From assembly GCA_007713595.1 (NCBI GenBank), contig VMRY01000041.1, forward strand, positions 1-64,000: a stretch of DNA of 64,000 bases, read 5' to 3'. The notes under the pieces are model-generated. The model saw nothing but the letters and a program-made list of their open reading frames with translations. It was not told where the DNA came from and ran no database searches. This document shows positions 5,027 to 48,136 of this stretch, one piece after another. Position 1 is the stretch's first letter. Each line of letters opens with the position of its first letter. The DNA comes from Sedimenticola thiotaurini. GTDB lineage: Bacteria > Pseudomonadota > Gammaproteobacteria > Chromatiales > Chromatiaceae. The position numbers and the translations under genes are program-made.

Positions 5027-6061
5027 ATGCGGGTATTGGGAATTGAAACCTCCTGTGATGAGACAGGTGTTGCACTCTACGACAGTGATAGAGGGTTACT
5101 TGGGCATAAACTGCACAGTCAGATTGATCTGCATGCGGTCTATGGTGGTGTTGTGCCTGAGTTGGCCTCGCGAGATCACGTACGTAAGACCCTGCCCTTG
5201 ATCGCCAGCCTGCTCGATGAGACGGGGCTTTCCAAGAGCGATATCGATGGTGTTGCCTATACCGCGGGGCCTGGTTTGGTGGGGGCGTTACTGGTAGGTG
5301 CGGCTATCGGCCGTACCCTGGCCTGGGCTTGGCAGGTGCCGGCGGTGGGTGTGCATCATATGGAAGGGCATCTGCTGGCCCCCATGCTGGAGGCAGAGCG
5401 TCCGGAATTCCCGTTTGTCGCCCTGCTGGTTTCGGGTGGACACACTCAGCTGGTCGAAGTGAAGGGGATTGGTGATTACCGACTGCTTGGTGAGTCCCTG
5501 GATGATGCGGCGGGTGAGGCGTTCGACAAAACAGCCAAGATGATGGGGCTTCCCTATCCGGGCGGGCCGGAACTGGCCGCCCTGGCACTGAAGGGTGATC
5601 CAACGCGCTTTCATTTTCCTCGTCCCATGACCGATCGTCCCGGTCTGGATTTCAGTTTCAGCGGTTTGAAGACCTTTGCCTTGAATACGACGCAGCGTGA
5701 AATAGCGGCTGATGATTCAGCGGAGACCATTTTGCAGACCAAGGCGGATATTGCTCGCGCCTTTGAAGAGGCCGTAGTCGATACGCTGGTGATCAAGTGT
5801 CGGCGTGCCGTACGAGAGAGCAGTGCTGCTACACTGGTATTGGCCGGCGGAGTAAGTGCTAACCGTCACCTGCGGGAAAGGATGCAGGCGGCAATGAAGA
5901 GAGAGGGTGCCCGGGTCTATTATCCGCGCACGGAATTTTGTACTGATAACGGCGCCATGATTGCTTATGCTGGTTGGCAGCGCCTCAGGGCAGGTGCTAC
6001 CGAACCGATGGGCTTCAGTGCCAAGGCCAGATGGCCCATGGATACCCTGCCCAAGTTATAG
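5027..6061 (+). CDS. tsaD: tRNA N6-adenosine threonylcarbamoyltransferase TsaD
   Basis: The protein transfers the threonylcarbamoyl group to A37 of ANN-decoding tRNAs, with TsaB and TsaE. The N-terminus [14 protein letters not shown] is diagnostic. The metal-binding HxxxH is His111/His115 (HHMEGH). The ASKHA-fold signature [11 protein letters not shown] and the distal [11 protein letters not shown] motif are present. The length of 344 is normal. It is divergent from rpsU, as in E. coli and many relatives, with 240 bases between them. It converges on plsY, leaving one base between the stop codons. Confidence 0.97.
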
Positions 6062-6062
6062 A

Positions 6063-6671
6063 TCAGGCATCAGACTCCGGGCCCTGTTCTTTTTTGATCT
6101 TGCCTTCTGCTCCGGAGAGCAGGTTTCTGATATTACTGCGATGCCGCCAGAACAGCAGCAGACTCATAATGATCTGCATGCCAACCAGTTCTGGTGCCGG
6201 CCAGAAAAACCAGACCACCACAGGGGCCAGGGCCATCGAGACCAAGGCGGCCAGTGATGAGATATTCACTCCCTTGGCCATGAAGAGCCAGAGCAGGGCA
6301 ACAACCCCACCAATCTGCCAACTGAGGCCAAACTGGGTGCCCAATGCGGTAGCGACACCCTTGCCCCCTGCGAAGCGGAAGAAGATCGGGTAGAGATGCC
6401 CCAGGAAGGCCGCCATGGCAACAGCGGCCAGTATAACGGGCTCAACGCCGAGCAGTTTGGCAGCCAGTACTGGAAAAAAACCTTTCAGGCTGTCACCGAG
6501 CAGAGTAATAGCGGCGGCCTTTTTGCCTCCGATTCGCAGCACGTTGGTGGCTCCGGGATTATTAGACCCCTGGGTGCGCGGGTCAGGTAGTCCCATCAGC
6601 CGACAGACAAGGATAGCGCTGGAGAGAGAACCCAGCAGGTAGGCCGCAATGATTAAGAGTGCATTTGTCAT
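6063..6671 (-). CDS. plsY: Glycerol-3-phosphate acyltransferase PlsY
   Basis: An integral membrane enzyme that acylates glycerol-3-phosphate from acyl-phosphate, the first step of phospholipid synthesis alongside PlsX. The protein has 202 residues and about five hydrophobic segments. The conserved loops are present: GSLSSAILVCRLMGLPDPR, GSNNPGATNVLR and GGKGVATALG. The frame is open 25 codons upstream, but the ATG at 6671 gives the family N-terminus and has an ACAGGAAA ribosome site. It sits between tsaD and folB, a frequent gammaproteobacterial order. Confidence 0.96.
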   Translation of the reverse strand: MTNALLIIAAYLLGSLSSAILVCRLMGLPDPRTQGSNNPGATNVLRIGGKKAAAITLLGDSLKGFFPVLAAKLLGVEPVILAAVAMAAFLGHLYPIFFRFAGGKGVATALGTQFGLSWQIGGVVALLWLFMAKGVNISSLAALVSMALAPVVVWFFWPAPELVGMQIIMSLLLFWRHRSNIRNLLSGAEGKIKKEQGPESDA

Positions 6672-40991: not shown

Positions 40992-42503
40992 TTGAACAGT
41001 GTCCGGCAGATTGATCCTACAGGGAAGCGCGCAGCGGGTCGGCGCTTTCCAACCGGATCACTTTATCACTGGTCTTTTATCGGTTTTCTGGTGGTGACAC
41101 TGCCAGTTGTCGTAGCGTTGCTCTCGGGCCTGCTCTCTGTCAGCAATTATACCGAAAAGAGTCAACAGACGCTGTTTCAGACCGTGCGTGCAACCGAAGG
41201 GGGGCGTATGCTCCTGGAGCGCCTGATCTCAATGGAACGGAGTATCCGTCAATATCAGGTGCTAAAGGATCAAGAGCTCTATTCGGTCTATCAGCAGCAT
41301 CATGCGGCCTTTGTAGATGTCGCTAATGGACTGCGGTTTGATGGTCTGTCAAATGATCTGCGGATACCCCTGGAAGGATTGCTGAGTGCCGAACACGCCC
41401 TGCACCAGCACGTGGAAAAGCGCTCCACAGACAAAACCAACTTATTGAAAGCGGACGATCTGCAGGGTTATGAGACATTGACGCTGCAGGCCAGAGCGTT
41501 ATTGCAGATTGGCAGTCGAGAAGTAGTGGTTGAGGCGGAACTGTTGGCCCAGGAGGCTGACCGGGTTCGCCGGCAGATGCTGCTGTGGGTTTTGTTGGCA
41601 CTCCCTCTGGCGCTGCTGCTGGGTCTGCTGTTTGCCTATTTACTGACCCGGCCAATCAAGCGAATCGAGCGGGTCATCAGCGAGCTTGGTGCAGGACGTT
41701 TTGATCAACCGATCGTGATTCACGGCCCCAGTGATCTGGAAGATCTGGGTCATCATCTGGACTGGATGCGGCGACGCTTAATGGAGGTCGAAGATGAGAA
41801 AGAACGCTTTATCCGCAATATTTCACATGAACTGAAGACGCCACTGGCCACGCTTAGGGAAGGGGCGGATCTGCTGGAGGATGAGGTGGTGGGTGAGCTG
41901 AATTGTGAGCAACTTGAAATTGTGCAGCTGATGAAAATTGGTACCCTGCAGCTGAATGGGCTGGTGGAGAATCTGCTTGAATATCAGCGGGTGGCCAATC
42001 GCCCTGAGTTGGGTGAGCCCTGTCAGTTTGATTTTGCTGCATTGATTAGAAAGACGGTGACGGAGTACCGCTTGCTGATCAGATCAAAGCAGCTGGAGAT
42101 TGTTGATGAGCTGGTATCGATACCCATGCAGGGAGACCGGGAGGCGGTCAGGATGATGGTGGGAAATCTTTTGAGTAATGCAATCAAGTTCTCGCCTGAA
42201 GAGGGCAGTGTGCGACTCACACTCTCTGCACAAAATGAACAGGTGATCCTGCTGGTTGAAGATCAGGGTGAAGGGGTTTCAATGGCGGATCAGTCGAAGA
42301 TATATCAAGAATTTTATCAGGGGAGCAACGCCGGTAGCTGGAGTGTTAAAGGGTCAGGACTTGGTCTGGCGTTGGTCAGGGATACCGTAGAGCGGCATCG
42401 GGGTACCGTCACACTGCTCAAACCGACGGACATCTATCCAGGCGCACGCTTCAGGCTTACACTGCCGTTAACCCAGCCGCCTCTGTTGGAGGTGGTGTCA
42501 TGA
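40992..42503 (+). CDS. glrK: Sensor histidine kinase GlrK (QseE-like)
   Basis: The membrane sensor of the GlrK-GlrR system controlling cell-envelope functions in enterobacteria. The 503 residues show a first membrane helix (residues 28-50), a periplasmic helical domain of about 145 residues, a second helix (197-218), HAMP, then a HisKA box with His279 in NISHELKTPLATLREG. ATPase motifs N (LLSNAIKFSPE), D (EDQGEGV) and G (GSGLGLALV) follow. The start is TTG with GGAG upstream; no ATG fits. It overlaps qseG by four bases (ATGA type). Confidence 0.92.
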   Translation: MNSVRQIDPTGKRAAGRRFPTGSLYHWSFIGFLVVTLPVVVALLSGLLSVSNYTEKSQQTLFQTVRATEGGRMLLERLISMERSIRQYQVLKDQELYSVYQQHHAAFVDVANGLRFDGLSNDLRIPLEGLLSAEHALHQHVEKRSTDKTNLLKADDLQGYETLTLQARALLQIGSREVVVEAELLAQEADRVRRQMLLWVLLALPLALLLGLLFAYLLTRPIKRIERVISELGAGRFDQPIVIHGPSDLEDLGHHLDWMRRRLMEVEDEKERFIRNISHELKTPLATLREGADLLEDEVVGELNCEQLEIVQLMKIGTLQLNGLVENLLEYQRVANRPELGEPCQFDFAALIRKTVTEYRLLIRSKQLEIVDELVSIPMQGDREAVRMMVGNLLSNAIKFSPEEGSVRLTLSAQNEQVILLVEDQGEGVSMADQSKIYQEFYQGSNAGSWSVKGSGLGLALVRDTVERHRGTVTLLKPTDIYPGARFRLTLPLTQPPLLEVVS

Positions 42504-43054
42504 AAACCATGGCATTCATTCTCGTGCTGACTCTACTGGCGGGATGTCAGCAGCAGCCAATCAGACGTGGCAATCAAGTGGGTGCGGTCACTGGCGCTGT
42601 TTCAATTACCGAGGATCTGCAAAGTCTGATGGATTTCTCTGATCGCTTTCAATCTTATGAGCGGGAGGGTCAGTTGGCCCTCTGCGCTGAAATGCGTGCG
42701 GCTTTTGAACGGGAGGCCAATCGCTGGACCGGCTGGTATTTGGCCACAGCAATTAGCCAGGTTGATGGATGCGGCACTCCGCAGGAGGCAATTGGCTGGA
42801 TACAGGCGATGCTGAAGCAACGGTTTGTCTCCAGTGAAGTGAGCTGGTTGGCCCACTATCAGATCCGCTTGTTGCAGTATCAGCAACAACAGCAACAGCA
42901 ATTGGCCGCCACGACGGCAGAACAGAAGAAGCTGCAGCGACGACTCTCGCAGATGGATAAGAGCAACAGCATTCTGGAGAAACAGCTGCAAGATCTGAAA
43001 CGCATAGAGACCAGTATCAACAGGCGGCTTGATGAAAAGCACAAAGCAGACTGA
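42500..43054 (+). CDS. qseG: QseG-like outer-membrane lipoprotein
   Basis: A 184-residue lipoprotein: the signal ends LTLLAGC, with Cys16 lipidated, and the mature part is helical, ending with a Gln-rich coiled coil (QQQQQQLAATTAEQKKLQRRLSQ). The position between glrK and glrR is that of qseG in enterobacteria, where the lipoprotein binds and activates the kinase. Sequence similarity is modest by eye, so the symbol rests largely on order. A strong GGAGGTGG site precedes it. It overlaps glrK by 4 and glrR by 23 bases, indicating translational coupling of all three. Confidence 0.82.
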   Translation: MKTMAFILVLTLLAGCQQQPIRRGNQVGAVTGAVSITEDLQSLMDFSDRFQSYEREGQLALCAEMRAAFEREANRWTGWYLATAISQVDGCGTPQEAIGWIQAMLKQRFVSSEVSWLAHYQIRLLQYQQQQQQQLAATTAEQKKLQRRLSQMDKSNSILEKQLQDLKRIETSINRRLDEKHKAD

Positions 43055-44423
43055 GTTGTCACCCAATCACCGTGTGCTGCTGGTAGATGATGATCCCAGC
43101 CTGCTCCGTCTGCTGTCGTTGCGACTTACGGCAATTGGCCTGACGGTTGAAACGGCCAGCAGTGGCGAGCAGGCGTTGAGCCTGGTGGCACAGTTCAAAC
43201 CGCATCTGGTGATTACCGATCTGCGCATGGGTGAGATGGATGGGTTGGCGCTGTTTGAACAGCTGCAACAGCACTATCCGCTCCTACCGGTCATCATCCT
43301 GACGGCACATGGCACTATCCAGGAAGCGGTGAAGGCAACACGTCAGGGTCTGTTTGGTTTTCTTACCAAACCGTTTGATAGTAAAGAGCTGATAGCGCAG
43401 GTAGAACAGGCGCTACAGATCAGTGGCTGGCCGCAGGCTGAAAGTGAACAGGATACTGAACTGGATTGGCGCGCTGAGATCATCACCCGCAGTCAGTCGA
43501 TGGAGCAGTTATTACAAGAGGTGAAACGGGTGGCACAAGGAGACGCGAGCCTGTTTGTTCATGGTGAGAGCGGTACAGGAAAAGAGTTGATTGCCCGGGC
43601 AGTACATCGTGTGGGCCCGCGTCGAGATGAACCCTTCGTGGCAGTTAACTGCAGTGCCATACCGGCCGAGTTGTTGGAGTCAGAACTGTTTGGGCATGTG
43701 CGTGGTGCCTTCAGTGGTGCAGTCGCCTCCCGCGAGGGTCTGTTCCAGAGTGCCAATGGTGGAACGCTGTTTCTGGATGAGATCGGCGACATGCCACCAC
43801 TGTTTCAGGTGAAACTGTTGCGTGCACTGCAAGAGCAGCGTGTTCGACCTGTCGGTGCCAATCAGGATGTGGCCGTCGATGTACGTATCATATCTGCCAG
43901 TCATCATGACCTGGAAGCGTTGGTGAGTGAGGGCAGTTTTCGGCAGGATCTCTATTATCGGCTCAATGTGGTGACACTCACGCTGCCGCCACTCTCTGAA
44001 CGGCGTGAAGATATTCCGTTGCTGGCGAATCACTTTTTAACGCGCCTGGCACCCCGTTATGGTAATCGGGTTAAAGGTTTTTCCGCCGAGTCCCTGGAGG
44101 CCCTGGTTCAGTATGACTGGCCCGGTAATGTGCGCCAGCTACAGAATGTAATCGAGCAGCTGACGGCACTCTCTTCCACGCCGATCATTCCCGTTAAACA
44201 GGTAGAGAAGGCACTCAAGGAGAAGAGTGCCATGGTGCCGGGTTTTCAGGAGGCGCGGGAACATTTTGAGCGCGAGTATCTGATGGAGCTGCTGCGTCGT
44301 GTCAGCGGTAACGTGAGTCAGGCCGCCAAGCTGGCCAAGCGTAATCGAACCGAGTTTTACAAGCTGCTGAAACGCCATCACCTGGAACCGGCAAGGTTTA
44401 AACAGGACTCGGCAAGCGACTGA
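43032..44423 (+). CDS. glrR: Sigma-54-dependent response regulator GlrR (QseF-like)
   Basis: A 463-residue activator of sigma-54 RNA polymerase: a receiver domain with phospho-acceptor Asp63 (ITDLRMGEMDG), an AAA+ domain with Walker A GESGTGKE (178-185), and a Fis-type helix-turn-helix near the end (GNVSQAAKLAKRNRTEFYKLL), almost identical to E. coli QseF/GlrR. The sigma-54 contact loop is GAFSGA (225-230) rather than GAFTGA, a conservative Thr-to-Ser change. It ends 300 bases before the sigma-54-type promoter of the EF-hand gene, a likely target. Confidence 0.95.
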   Translation: MKSTKQTELSPNHRVLLVDDDPSLLRLLSLRLTAIGLTVETASSGEQALSLVAQFKPHLVITDLRMGEMDGLALFEQLQQHYPLLPVIILTAHGTIQEAVKATRQGLFGFLTKPFDSKELIAQVEQALQISGWPQAESEQDTELDWRAEIITRSQSMEQLLQEVKRVAQGDASLFVHGESGTGKELIARAVHRVGPRRDEPFVAVNCSAIPAELLESELFGHVRGAFSGAVASREGLFQSANGGTLFLDEIGDMPPLFQVKLLRALQEQRVRPVGANQDVAVDVRIISASHHDLEALVSEGSFRQDLYYRLNVVTLTLPPLSERREDIPLLANHFLTRLAPRYGNRVKGFSAESLEALVQYDWPGNVRQLQNVIEQLTALSSTPIIPVKQVEKALKEKSAMVPGFQEAREHFEREYLMELLRRVSGNVSQAAKLAKRNRTEFYKLLKRHHLEPARFKQDSASD

Positions 44424-44466: not shown

Positions 44467-44484
44467 TGTCGCCATTCGGCTACA
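44467..44484 (+). promoter_or_regulatory. GlrR-type upstream activator site 1
   Basis: TGTC-N10-TACA, one base off the TGTC-N10-GACA consensus described for GlrR sites at enterobacterial glmY. The site also forms a wider dyad (CTGT.GCC....GGC.ACAG). Its centre is about 175 bases before the expected transcription start. Confidence 0.6.
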
Positions 44485-44499
44485 GTCAGAATCACTAGA

Positions 44500-44512
44500 T
44501 ATCAATGAGTTG
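44500..44512 (+). promoter_or_regulatory. Predicted IHF binding site
   Basis: TATCAATGAGTTG matches the IHF consensus WATCAA-N4-TTR exactly. It lies between activator sites 1 and 2, where bending would bring bound activator to the sigma-54 promoter. Confidence 0.5.
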
Positions 44513-44532
44513 CAGAATAACGCTGTTTTTGC

Positions 44533-44550
44533 TGTTGCCAACAGACGACA
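44533..44550 (+). promoter_or_regulatory. GlrR-type upstream activator site 2
   Basis: TGTT-N10-GACA, again one base off TGTC-N10-GACA. It starts 66 bases after site 1, close to six helical turns, so both would lie on the same face of the DNA. Confidence 0.6.
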
Positions 44551-44565
44551 AAAGCGCATCACAAG

Positions 44566-44583
44566 TGTCTTGATTATTGGCGA
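44566..44583 (+). promoter_or_regulatory. Possible third, weaker GlrR-type site
   Basis: TGTC-N10-GCGA has a perfect left half and a poor right half. It starts 33 bases after site 2, about three helical turns. Taken alone it would be unconvincing; the regular spacing is the reason to note it. Confidence 0.35.
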
Positions 44584-44624
44584 TGGATTACTTAACTCAT
44601 TGTAAATAATGAAAATAAAAAAGT

Positions 44625-44640
44625 TGGCACTGCACTTGCT
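44625..44640 (+). promoter_or_regulatory. Sigma-54 promoter of EF-hand gene
   Basis: TGGCACTGCACTTGCT matches the consensus TGGCACG-N4-TTGCW at every position except one (G to T at position 7). GG and GC are 10 bases apart. Expected start is near 44651, giving a leader of about 60 bases before the ATG at 44710. The activator gene glrR is immediately upstream. Confidence 0.85.
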
Positions 44641-44709
44641 CTACTCCTGTCAGCTGAGTGCATGAAGCAGTCAGTCTGACTTTTAACTAATGAGATTAAC
44701 GGAGTGATT

Positions 44710-44952
44710 ATGTCTAAGAAGATTCTTGCTGCCCTACTTGCTGCAATGGCTACCGCTGCTGTGATTGCTGCTGAAACCAAATCAGAAGCTGTTTTTGATG
44801 CTGACAACAATGGCACCCTGAGCGTGGAAGAAGCCAAGGCAATTCCTGGTCTGTCTGAACAGTGGGATGAGCTGGATGTAAACAAGGATGGTCAGTTAGA
44901 CCCTGCTGAGTTTTCCAAGTTTGTTGCTGTGGAAACCAAGCCAGCTAACTAA
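44710..44952 (+). CDS. Small secreted EF-hand protein
   Basis: An 80-residue precursor: a signal peptide (SKKILAALLAAMATAAVIAA, likely cut after Ala21) and two canonical EF-hand loops, DADNNGTLSVEE (residues 30-41) and DVNKDGQLDPAE (56-67), both with Glu at position 12. It should bind calcium in the periplasm or outside. The ATG at 44710 has GGAG six bases upstream; a GTG two codons before is less likely. A sigma-54 promoter and GlrR-like sites precede it, and a terminator follows, so it is a single-gene transcript. Confidence 0.93.
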   Translation: MSKKILAALLAAMATAAVIAAETKSEAVFDADNNGTLSVEEAKAIPGLSEQWDELDVNKDGQLDPAEFSKFVAVETKPAN

Positions 44953-45011
44953 TCAAGCCAACCGGCTGACCGCAGGGCAGAACTCCCTCCTGTGGTCATG
45001 TAAAGCAAAAG

Positions 45012-45055
45012 ACTAAGCCTCGGCAGGATATTATCCCGCCGGGGTTTAGTTTTTT
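45012..45055 (+). terminator. Rho-independent terminator
   Basis: A hairpin with ACTAA/TTAGT at the base and a CGGC/GCCG upper stem is followed by a run of six T. It ends the EF-hand transcript. It stops 11 bases before the cbbO stop codon, which comes from the other strand. Confidence 0.75.
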
Positions 45056-45065
45056 GGTGTTTTGC

Positions 45066-47321
45066 TTAGCGTGTGAGCGACACGAACAGCTCAGGCAGTT
45101 TTGCTGGCAACTTCTCAACCCGGTCAATTACGCTGTACTGTTTGCCAAAAATGTCCGCCACATACTCATCGGCCTTCGGATCGAGATTGATGCAGTAGGT
45201 GTAGATATTGTCACGATCCAACTCCTGCACCGCTTTTCTCGCATCCTCAATCAGCAGTCGGTCATCATCGACATCAATGTCAGATGGTTCCCCATCGGTC
45301 AGTACCAGCAGCAGTTTCTTCTCGGCCGTGCGCTTCCCGAGGTAGTGACCTGCATGGCGTATAGCTGCACCCATGCGGGTTGAATAGCCAGCCTGCATGG
45401 CGGCCAGTCGTGCCTTCACATCATCATTCCATGTTTCACTGTAGCCTTTGATGTGCTGATAGCGCACTTCATGTCGCGTGTTGGAAGAGAAGCCGGCAAT
45501 AGCGAACGAGTCACCCAGACGATCAATGGCCCAGGCCAGCAGGGCAACTGCCTCCTGACTCAGTTGCAGGATACTCTGCTCACAACCTTCAGGCACCTGA
45601 TGCAGTGACTCGGATAGATCCAGCAATAACATCACCGCAATATCACGGCCATCATGACGATGGCTCATGTTGATGCGCGGATCGGGATTGGCACCGCCTT
45701 TAAAATCAACCAGAGAGCGGATAGCGACATCAAGATCCAGTTCGCTGCCATCTTCCTGATAGCGAACCCGCACATACTGTTGTGGTTTTAACAGGTCGAG
45801 AATCTGTTTCAATCGTTTGGCCAAAGCGCTGTGTTTGGTCAGCAGGTCCTCAATCAGTTTGGCATCACCCGGTGGGTGCAGTGATTCATACAGACTGACC
45901 CAGTCGGGGCGATAAGTCTTGGTTCGATAATCCCACTCCGGATAGTGACGCGGTGGCAGCGCATTCAGTGGCTCCTGCTCCACCTTCTTGCGCTCGACCT
46001 CGTACTGTTCCTCTTCATCGCCCTCTTCGATGAACTTCCACAGGTGTCGATTATCATCCCGGTACTCAACAACGGTATTTTTAAAATAGACGTTGGCGGC
46101 CTGATCCATCTGAATACGGGTGCGGGCAATAAATGAGATGGCGAGCTGAACGATAGATTGTGTTGTCGTCTCGCCTGATTGCATCAGTTCACGGAACTCT
46201 GCCACACAGTTCAGAATATCGGCATTGGTGTAGGTATGGTTCGGGTTCAGAATAGCATAAGAGAGCATCGCCAGACGGTGCCGAATACAGGACTCTTTCT
46301 CCGGGTCGCACTCACCCTCAATGGGTACCGGGTGCAGTGACAGCCACAGATTGCGCAGGCCGGGATAGCACTGTATGGCAAGATACTCCACCCGGGAGTC
46401 TTCCAGCAGTTCGATGGCGATGCGTTGGAACGGACTGAAGTTGTCGGCAAAGATGAAATGGCTCCAGCGTCGATGTGCCGCCATGTGCCCCAACACCGCG
46501 CGATAGCGATTGATGCCGCTGACACCGGAATCCGTATCATCAAACACATCCGGCAGACGAATACCCAGTGAATCGAAATACGGCATCGGTTTGCGCAGTT
46601 CGTCAAAGGCGTGGGAATAGGGGACTAGCTGATCCTTGTCCTGCCAGAGTGCTCGCAGATAGAGTTCCAGCTGGCGCTCATTATCCGCAAACAGGGTGCC
46701 ATGCCGTTCCCGTTGCAGAATAGCCCGGCTGTCAGCTGATTGCAGACTGAAATAATCCCGCTGCCGATCAGGATGGGTTGAATAGTTGTGTATACCGTAC
46801 TCGGTCCAGTTGCGAATACCCTCAAGCGATAACTGATTCAGCAGAAAAGGCATCTGCTCCAGATACTCTTTTGCACTTGGACTGGGGATGGTGGCGTGAA
46901 AGCCATGAATGGAACCGCTGGTACGTTCCAGCATATCCATCAACAGATCAATATAACGACTGAGCTGCTTCTCACTCCCCAGCCGGCGTGCCGCCTCTGG
47001 CAGTGTTTGTAGAAAAGGCAAGATGGTAACGCCATTGGGTGTGCGGGAGAGTTTCCAGACCGTCTGGGAAACCAGACCCAAAACTGATTCGCCCAGTTTT
47101 GCCGCCACCTGGGGCATCTCTTCCAGATAGACCAGTACCGGCTCAAAGCCACGGCCAATCATGCAGACCAGAGAAGCGCCTTCAAGATACTCCTTGATAC
47201 CGGCTTCACTCAGGCTAAGGGCAGCCTCCTCCATGCAATCGGCAAACAGCAGATCCAGTTGCTGGAAGTTGCAGGTCAGTTGCTCCCGATAGATCTGGAG
47301 TTTTGCTTCTTCGATGCTCAC
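45066..47321 (-). CDS. cbbO: CbbO, RuBisCO activase subunit with VWA domain
   Basis: The adaptor of the CbbQO-type RuBisCO activase: its C-terminal von Willebrand A domain docks on RuBisCO and its N-terminal helical region sits on the CbbQ hexamer. At 751 residues it has the usual length. The MIDAS motif DLSES is visible in AVMLLLDLSESLHQVP (about residues 557-572). The distal segments NIYTYCINLDPKADEYVADIFG are typical of the CbbO/NorD group. It starts eight bases after cbbQ, so they are one operon. The CbbQ partner and its sequence favour CbbO over NorD. Confidence 0.93.
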   Translation of the reverse strand: MSIEEAKLQIYREQLTCNFQQLDLLFADCMEEAALSLSEAGIKEYLEGASLVCMIGRGFEPVLVYLEEMPQVAAKLGESVLGLVSQTVWKLSRTPNGVTILPFLQTLPEAARRLGSEKQLSRYIDLLMDMLERTSGSIHGFHATIPSPSAKEYLEQMPFLLNQLSLEGIRNWTEYGIHNYSTHPDRQRDYFSLQSADSRAILQRERHGTLFADNERQLELYLRALWQDKDQLVPYSHAFDELRKPMPYFDSLGIRLPDVFDDTDSGVSGINRYRAVLGHMAAHRRWSHFIFADNFSPFQRIAIELLEDSRVEYLAIQCYPGLRNLWLSLHPVPIEGECDPEKESCIRHRLAMLSYAILNPNHTYTNADILNCVAEFRELMQSGETTTQSIVQLAISFIARTRIQMDQAANVYFKNTVVEYRDDNRHLWKFIEEGDEEEQYEVERKKVEQEPLNALPPRHYPEWDYRTKTYRPDWVSLYESLHPPGDAKLIEDLLTKHSALAKRLKQILDLLKPQQYVRVRYQEDGSELDLDVAIRSLVDFKGGANPDPRINMSHRHDGRDIAVMLLLDLSESLHQVPEGCEQSILQLSQEAVALLAWAIDRLGDSFAIAGFSSNTRHEVRYQHIKGYSETWNDDVKARLAAMQAGYSTRMGAAIRHAGHYLGKRTAEKKLLLVLTDGEPSDIDVDDDRLLIEDARKAVQELDRDNIYTYCINLDPKADEYVADIFGKQYSVIDRVEKLPAKLPELFVSLTR

Positions 47322-47329
47322 GGCATGTC

Positions 47330-48136
47330 TCAGGCGAACAGGGTATCGATAGCGTGATCCAGGGTGGCGCGGATATCCGCATCATCGGTAATTGGGCGTA
47401 CCAGCGCCATGCGACAGGCCGCACGGGGTTCAATGCCCTGCTTGATCAACTCTGCTCCGTAGACCAGCAGTCGGGTAGAGATGCCCTCATCCAGACCATG
47501 CCCTTTCAGGTTACGGGCAGTCTGGCCAATCTTCACTAACTTGCTGGCGGTGTCCGCATCGGTGCCGGTCTCTTTGCAGATAATCTCGCACTCGATCTTC
47601 TCCGGCGCGTAATCAAAATCCAGTGCCGCAAAGCGCTGCTTGGTAGACTGCTTCAGATCCTTCATCAGACTCTGATAACCGGGGTTATAGGAGATTACCA
47701 GTTGAAAATCAGGATGGGCCGAGATCACCTCTCCCTTCTTGTCCAGTGGCAGGGTGCGGCGATGATCGGTCAATGGATGAATCACAACCGTTGTATCCTG
47801 GCGCGCTTCCACCACCTCATCCAGATAACAGATCGCCCCGATACGGGCCGCAGTGGTCAGTGGGCCATCCAGCCAGCGGGTGCCATCGGCATCCAGCAGA
47901 TAGCGCCCGACCAGATCAGAGGCCGTCATATCCTCATTACAGGCAACCGTAATTAGCGGCCGCTTCAGTTTCCACGCCATGTGTTCCACAAAACGTGACT
48001 TACCACAGCCGGTCGGGCCTTTGATCATAATCGGCATGCGTGCCTGGTAAGCCGCCTGATAGAGGGCAATCTCATCCTCCTGCGGCTGATAAAAAGGCTC
48101 GTTCTCAATCAGGTACTGTGCAACATCAGCGATCAT
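47330..48136 (-). CDS. cbbQ: CbbQ, AAA+ RuBisCO activase
   Basis: A 268-residue MoxR-type AAA+ ATPase that, with CbbO, removes inhibitory sugar phosphates from RuBisCO. Walker A is GPTGCGKS (residues 40-47), Walker B ICYLDEVVEA, and the VACNEDMTASDLVGRYLLDADGT stretch is near-invariant in CbbQ. The later NPGYQSLMKDLKQSTKQRF fits too. NorQ is the close paralogue; CbbQ is favoured by the near-perfect match to CbbQ loops. It heads the operon with cbbO. No RuBisCO gene is within at least 45 kb upstream or 16 kb downstream. Confidence 0.95.
   Translation of the reverse strand: MIADVAQYLIENEPFYQPQEDEIALYQAAYQARMPIMIKGPTGCGKSRFVEHMAWKLKRPLITVACNEDMTASDLVGRYLLDADGTRWLDGPLTTAARIGAICYLDEVVEARQDTTVVIHPLTDHRRTLPLDKKGEVISAHPDFQLVISYNPGYQSLMKDLKQSTKQRFAALDFDYAPEKIECEIICKETGTDADTASKLVKIGQTARNLKGHGLDEGISTRLLVYGAELIKQGIEPRAACRMALVRPITDDADIRATLDHAIDTLFA

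Follow-up and report, generated by a model that had tools for sequence, protein, structure and literature searches.

A likely GlrR/sigma-54 enhancer-promoter in front of an EF-hand protein gene downstream of glrR in Sedimenticola thiotaurini

The window analysed here is a stretch of 64,000 nucleotides of Sedimenticola thiotaurini DNA (contig VMRY01000041.1, positions 1 to 64,000). In it, genes for a sensor kinase, a small lipoprotein and a sigma-54 response regulator follow one another in the order of GlrK-QseG-GlrR, and the start of a short EF-hand gene lies 286 bases past glrR. The operon, the intergenic region and the EF-hand gene contain the following features:

40992..42503, plus strand: glrK-type sensor kinase (Pfam HAMP, HisKA and HATPase; identity to E. 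coli GlrK)
42500..43054, plus strand: small lipoprotein gene in qseG's place (position; LLAGC lipobox-like segment)
43029..44423, plus strand: glrR-type sigma-54 response regulator (identity to E. coli GlrR; NCBIfam)
44467-44484, plus strand: GlrR-type site 1, palindrome TGTCGCCATTCGGCTACA (pattern TGTYGCC-N4-GGCRACA)
44500-44512, plus strand: exact match to the IHF consensus, between both palindromes
44533-44550, plus strand: GlrR-type site 2, palindrome TGTTGCCAACAGACGACA (same pattern)
44593-44605, minus strand: second, degenerate IHF-like site (2 mismatches, by eye), 32 bp before the sigma-54 TGG
44624-44640, plus strand: sigma-54 promoter TTGGCAC-N5-TTGCT, a perfect element 92 bp after the start of site 2
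44710..44952, plus strand: predicted secreted EF-hand protein, 80 aa, canonical loops DADNNGTLSVEE and DVNKDGQLDPAE (Pfam, sequence, model)
45008..45054, plus strand: terminator-like hairpin (-29.3 kcal/mol, z -6.1)

How closely do the products of this operon resemble their enterobacterial counterparts? Over 426 columns the kinase has 32% identity with E. coli GlrK, and it keeps the ERSxRQY segment; its MERSIRQY aligns with the E. coli MERSYRQY, so that both QseG-contacting arginines are present. Passages of the Salmonella study give these as R70 and R73, conserved kinase arginines that touch QseG, in the numbering of that paper's own protein (PMC12691602). In an alignment of 448 columns, the regulator and E. 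coli GlrR have 55% identity, and the DNA-recognition segment, RNRTEFYKLL, is the same in both. Its top NCBIfam match is the GlrR model NF011695, at 600 bits below the curated cut-off of 763, and for this reason we name it GlrR-type. The middle lipoprotein returned no match in Pfam and NCBIfam searches and no significant BLASTP similarity to E. coli QseG. Within family f1, close GlrR matches (at least 83% identity) were confined to the genus of the window, the other searched members reaching about 45% identity; this distribution suggests loss elsewhere or lateral gain.

The two palindromes start 66 bp apart and are the sole matches to their pattern at one mismatch or fewer in the 64-kb window, where a mean of 0.06 is expected by chance and where two were found in none of 100 shuffles. 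A preliminary description of this DNA had counted three TGTC-N10-GACA-like sites. The pair of palindromes stands; the supposed third site, starting at 44566 (TGTCTTGATTATTGGCGA), lacks the GACA half and is a half-site, and no palindrome is kept there across seven aligned promoters. The exact IHF consensus that it reported is indeed present, though four exact matches in the window against 2.49 expected place it, taken alone, at chance level. What had been called a near-consensus sigma-54 promoter proves to be a perfect element and the only match in the window at one mismatch or fewer; since 0.42 such matches are expected by chance, it too is weak evidence alone. At two mismatches, the own genome contains 49 single palindromes and 45 matches to the reversed pattern, which is chance level. 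The genome scan for further targets that had been proposed stayed at the level of chance for single sites. Among the sigma-54 matches listed, a coincidence of site and promoter (C149:474457 and 474641) was rejected, the site lying just past a gene end and the promoter inside a reading frame and antisense to it. The weight of the evidence is carried by the pairing, geometry and conservation of the palindromes rather than by single sites.

With the transcription start placed from the promoter, a leader of about 60 nt would extend to the ATG at 44710, as proposed earlier, and a GGAG stands ahead of this codon. The leader folds no better than its shuffles (z -1.3). At 44653-44680 it opens with AGCTGA-N-GC ... 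GCAG, conserved among six aligned leaders and a candidate 5' hairpin. The encoded protein matches Pfam EF-hand_1 with 38.2 bits (cut-off 25.4), begins with a signal-peptide-like N terminus and contains two loops that read as canonical EF-hands, in agreement with its earlier designation as a secreted EF-hand protein. Its AlphaFold model has a pLDDT of 81-91 over most of the EF part (residues 31-70), 70.7 overall, and a pTM of 0.48; the best Foldseek matches are calmodulin- and centrin-like chains, the best with an E-value of 0.0037 and none at or below 0.001. From its loops, the protein probably binds calcium. Lanmodulin was considered as an identity and dismissed, as the score against NF053806 is 37 bits, far under the cut-off of 135. 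Lanmodulins are distinguished by a proline at loop position 2 and by their number of loops; the window protein shares with them a weak profile match, but it has two loops and no such proline. Past the gene, the terminator-like hairpin at 45008-45054 (-29.3 kcal/mol, z -6.1) bears out the suggestion that the gene has its own terminator. A VWA-domain protein (Pfam) and an ATPase-like frame, together spanning 45066-48136 on the minus strand, converge on the EF-hand gene; they resemble CbbO and CbbQ.

Conservation was followed in nine genomes of the genus, the own genome included. The EF-hand gene is present in seven of them (own, G001 to G005 and G007), its reading frame conserved at 70-94% identity, and in six of these it lies downstream of glrR. 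In G002 it sits on a separate contig, and both contig ends fall in the spacer. The search gave no EF-hand match and no close GlrR match in G006, which is 90% complete, and no EF-hand match in G008, where the contig stops just past glrR. G001, G003, G004 and G007 possess a second, unlinked EF-hand gene, a paralogue of the first. A palindrome pair stands in front of every one of these genes, 65-67 bp apart in all seven promoters of the glrR-linked type and 63-66 bp apart in four of four paralogue promoters, and the distance from the start of site 2 to the sigma-54 TGG is exactly 92 bp in all 11. In these promoters a script picked the best palindrome within a 55-bp range, and its picks carry 0-3 consensus mismatches. 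An IHF-like sequence with at most one mismatch occurs 32-34 bp from site 1 in seven of the 11 and 32 bp before the sigma-54 TGG in five. Comparison of the sites in close relatives, named earlier as a check, has thus come out in favour of the module, with the pair and the sigma-54 element at 92 bp in 7/7 and 4/4 promoters.

Several further features of the genus loci were observed. In G001 (L069) and G002 (L064 and L065), insertions with ends like AAGTAAGTGC and GCACTTACTT separate glrR from site 1; as seen by eye in the alignment, they hold inner inverted repeats, resemble a miniature mobile element and occur only upstream of site 1. G007 also has extra sequence, seen by eye in the alignment, between glrR and site 1. 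On contig C58 of G001 (L091, 3117-3199) lies a perfect GlrR-type palindrome pair, 64 bp apart, with neither a sigma-54 element nor an EF-hand frame behind it; this may be what is left of a promoter copy. In G004 (L089, 4802-5302, minus strand), a frame that by eye resembles the retropepsin-like protease of G233 adjoins the second EF-hand gene.

Does the module as a whole go together with GlrR? The last 75 residues of GlrR, taken from an alignment of nine, served as query against 369 genomes and were matched at an E-value of 1e-12 or lower at 113 places in 107 genomes. The same 369 genomes were scanned for a strict whole module, defined as two TGTC-N10-GACA sites followed by a sigma-54 element. 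It was found in 12 genomes, once in each, and all 12 belong to the 107 with a GlrR-like C-terminus (hypergeometric P 2e-7, with genomes treated as independent, which is not fully true); none was listed for the reversed control pattern. The own genome falls outside these 12, since its sites depart from the strict definition. In G177 a different palindrome precedes a DctP-like gene, and its module is probably that of another, unrelated activator; without G177 the count is 11 of 11. Six strict modules lie away from GlrR loci (G316, G238, G177, G167, G154 and G391), and in no case is such a module followed directly by an EF-hand frame. The frames that follow GlrR-type sigma-54 modules in L293 (G377) and L298 (G391) look like acyltransferases of exosortase systems.

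For a class-wide view of the loci themselves, the 102 places with E-values of 2e-21 or lower were kept as the class sample, leaving out 11 weaker places. Of the 100 class loci with enough sequence, 20 have a strict sigma-54 match on the coding strand within 450 bp past glrR, versus none of 100 on the other strand and 16 of 1,498 other windows. The remaining 80 loci have no strict match within these 450 bp; in some class loci the sigma-54 module stands upstream of glrK instead. Where a sigma-54 element has a TGTN12ACA site 60-260 bp upstream, an EF-hand ORF follows in 14 of 27 class modules, compared with 121 of 10,200 random positions. These 14 modules are spread over ten family labels, and by the same ORF test the other 13 have no EF-hand ORF behind them. 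Such ORFs also follow sigma-54 elements that have no TGTN12ACA site (4 of 23 in the class sample and 5 of 20 in the named set described below, the best 80 of at least 583 places), so either the promoter contributes more than the site, or genuine sites escape the site pattern.

Of the 32 EF-hand ORFs in GlrR loci, 17 (16.2 per 100 kb of strand) fall on the coding strand at -150 to +900 relative to the end of glrR, an interval chosen after the ORF positions had been seen; the other 15 amount to 1.0 per 100 kb. A comparison with control loci was set aside: it showed no enrichment, with nine EF-hand ORFs in 165 kb (50 loci) against 32 in 789 kb (102 GlrR loci), and it was contaminated, since all nine control ORFs lie in loci that had been fetched by way of the site pattern (L073-L088, L095 and L096). 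The 34 control loci that remain without these hold no EF-hand ORF in 122 kb. The position test is internal to the GlrR loci and independent of either control.

What stands behind these promoters? A script picked 59 module targets, with start codons set heuristically, and 43 were aligned and scanned; 26 of the 43 match EF-hand_7, and as the 16 omitted targets looked short or wrongly chosen, the floor is 26 of 59. Other Pfam targets behind similar promoters are BON, glycine-zipper, MdoG, YgaP-type and aspartyl-protease proteins, many of them envelope proteins. Downstream of glrR in L152, L179 and L182, which include betaproteobacterial loci, a glycine-zipper envelope protein takes the place of the EF-hand protein behind a site-bearing promoter. 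In L231 (G233, 5935-6330), a retropepsin-like aspartyl protease frame (Pfam) follows the sigma-54 element downstream of glrR.

A GlrR scan of named records provided a second set, the best 80 of at least 583 confirmed places, nine of which are also in the class sample. Among the matches listed are Colwellia, Thalassotalea, Methylovorus, Aeromonas and Thiohalobacter as well as many uncultured beta- and gammaproteobacteria. In these best 80, a sigma-54 element lies within 450 bp past glrR in 26 of 79 loci, versus 0 of 79 on the other strand and 9 of 1,720 other windows; dropping the nine shared loci leaves 23 of 71 and 0 of 71. Still within the best 80 of at least 583, an EF-hand ORF follows the sigma-54 element with site in 6 of 22 modules, or 6 of 21 without the shared loci, where the remaining 15 have none; random positions gave 116 of 8,000. 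The named set is clearly enriched in EF-hand ORFs, though less strongly than the class sample. When both sets are combined (the named one again as the best 80 of at least 583), 18 of 24 palindrome pairs upstream of sigma-54 elements are spaced by 65-67 bp, a result that stays the same without the shared loci; the counts include both orientations of one pair, in L229. Among 20 paired modules, 10 have an IHF-like sequence with at most one mismatch 33 or 34 bp from where site 1 begins, and nine have one on the other strand, 31-33 bp before the TGG.

By sequence, we infer that GlrR and sigma-54 control the EF-hand gene, to which we assign a probability of roughly 0.88. Could the promoter respond to a different activator? 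At least 30 matches to GlrR-like activators were scored in the own genome and the paralogue promoters are unlinked to glrR, so another enhancer-binding protein might drive transcription with glrR merely adjacent. Against this stand the motif of the window, which is the same as that at E. coli glmY, and the fact that all 12 strict-module genomes fall within the 107, out of 369, that encode a GlrR-like C-terminus (P 2e-7 assuming independence, with G177 probably unrelated); we consider a different activator improbable. Still more improbable, in our estimate, is a promoter that makes a GlmY-like regulatory RNA, with the EF-hand frame secondary. The small RNA GlmY is the enterobacterial target of GlrR described in passages of the earlier literature (PMC6075780), and rapZ is encoded in the own genome. 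Rfam searches detected GlmZ in none of 19 genomes and GlmY in none of nine, the own genome included, which fits the initial suggestion that the system acts here on a protein instead of a small RNA; of 14 control genomes, though, E. coli alone was hit by either model, and a diverged RNA could therefore escape them. The unremarkable folding of the leader and the well-kept EF-hand frame, with its good Pfam support, also speak against an RNA product.

Taking the EF-hand gene as the target of GlrR, is its product an effector or a part of the sensor? In the periplasm, the protein might feed back on GlrK or on the lipoprotein in a calcium-dependent manner, much as an accessory protein would: its gene adjoins that of its own regulator, its product appears to be secreted, and passages of the Salmonella study describe a sensor kinase whose activity is set by a periplasm-facing lipoprotein (PMC12691602). 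The unlinked second EF-hand gene and the BON, glycine-zipper and MdoG targets behind similar promoters fit an effector regulon instead, and we regard feedback as unlikely, if less so than either alternative above.

With GlrR control of an effector as the preferred reading, the intergenic region would be a GlrR-dependent sigma-54 enhancer-promoter. We infer the binding of GlrR and IHF, transcription, export, calcium binding and physiological role as follows. GlrK, its activity probably controlled by the lipoprotein from the middle gene of the operon, would phosphorylate GlrR, whose oligomers would bind both palindromes 66 bp apart. IHF would aid GlrR by bending the DNA at two places, between the palindromes and immediately before the promoter, and GlrR would then remodel the sigma-54 RNA polymerase at 44624-44640. 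The resulting single-gene mRNA, ending near 45050, would encode a protein that is exported to the periplasm, binds calcium through its two loops and serves either to buffer calcium in the envelope or as a helper that depends on calcium. Such a role in envelope calcium is plausible, though we place it somewhat below even odds. In those species of the genus that have one, the second EF-hand gene would come under the same control, making a small GlrR EF-hand regulon.

That the pairing is met again in many distant relatives suggests that EF-hand proteins of this kind are a common, overlooked target of GlrKR. More tentatively, control of a small secreted EF-hand protein, often from a single gene beside glrR, may be the widespread and perhaps ancestral output of GlrKR/QseEGF in gamma- and betaproteobacteria, by which the system senses and adjusts envelope calcium or divalent cations, control of GlmY being a use to which enterobacteria later put this enhancer. 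The link to calcium physiology is put forward as a hypothesis. A recurrent EF-hand target combined with a fixed enhancer geometry gives GlrKR a concrete output outside the enterics, the pairing of GlrKR with EF-hand proteins is a candidate connection between envelope sensing and calcium, and the DNA pattern of the module can be used to look for regulons in uncultured bacteria.

How does this module relate to known systems? In passages of published work, most of what is known of QseEF/GlrKR concerns GlmY, RpoE and virulence in enterobacteria (PMC6075780), and a structural study from 2025 describes the cluster from across Pseudomonadota, in passages that name no non-enteric targets (PMC12691602). 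Our search of open-licence articles found none linking GlrR/QseF with EF-hand targets; the regulator and the kind of site are already known, and the EF-hand class of output was not found described. The glmY promoter is presented in the passages on it as having three QseF sites, TGTN12ACA, with IHF and sigma-54 (PMC6075780), and passages of work on P. mirabilis use TGTCN10GACA as the site (PMC8745638). Upstream of glmY in MG1655 we find TGTN12ACA sites at -231, -198 and -135, spaced by 33 and 63 bp, and a sigma-54 element at -28; the -198 site, TGTCGCTTTCTGGCGACA, has the same motif as the window palindromes, and the stretch from the second site to the third contains an exact IHF consensus. The window thus shares with GlrK-QseG-GlrR (QseE-QseG-QseF)/glmY the gene order, a GlrR at 55% identity, the palindrome motif, the IHF consensus and the sigma-54 promoter. 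It has two sites whereas glmY has three, the extra one lying upstream, and its sites are 66 bp apart compared with 63 bp between the second and third of glmY. Its target is a downstream EF-hand gene, and that of E. coli an upstream small RNA. Unlike in the E. coli system, glnB is absent from the place shown behind glrR, the lipoprotein is not similar to QseG by BLASTP and GlrR scores below the model cut-off. A different parallel is the Caulobacter periplasmic CaBP with sigV, which in passages of its description has three EF-hand motifs, goes with an ECF sigma factor rather than a sigma-54 two-component system and comes from another class; it resembles the predicted window protein in being a small EF-hand protein of the periplasm with a link to a stress regulator (PMC13171946).
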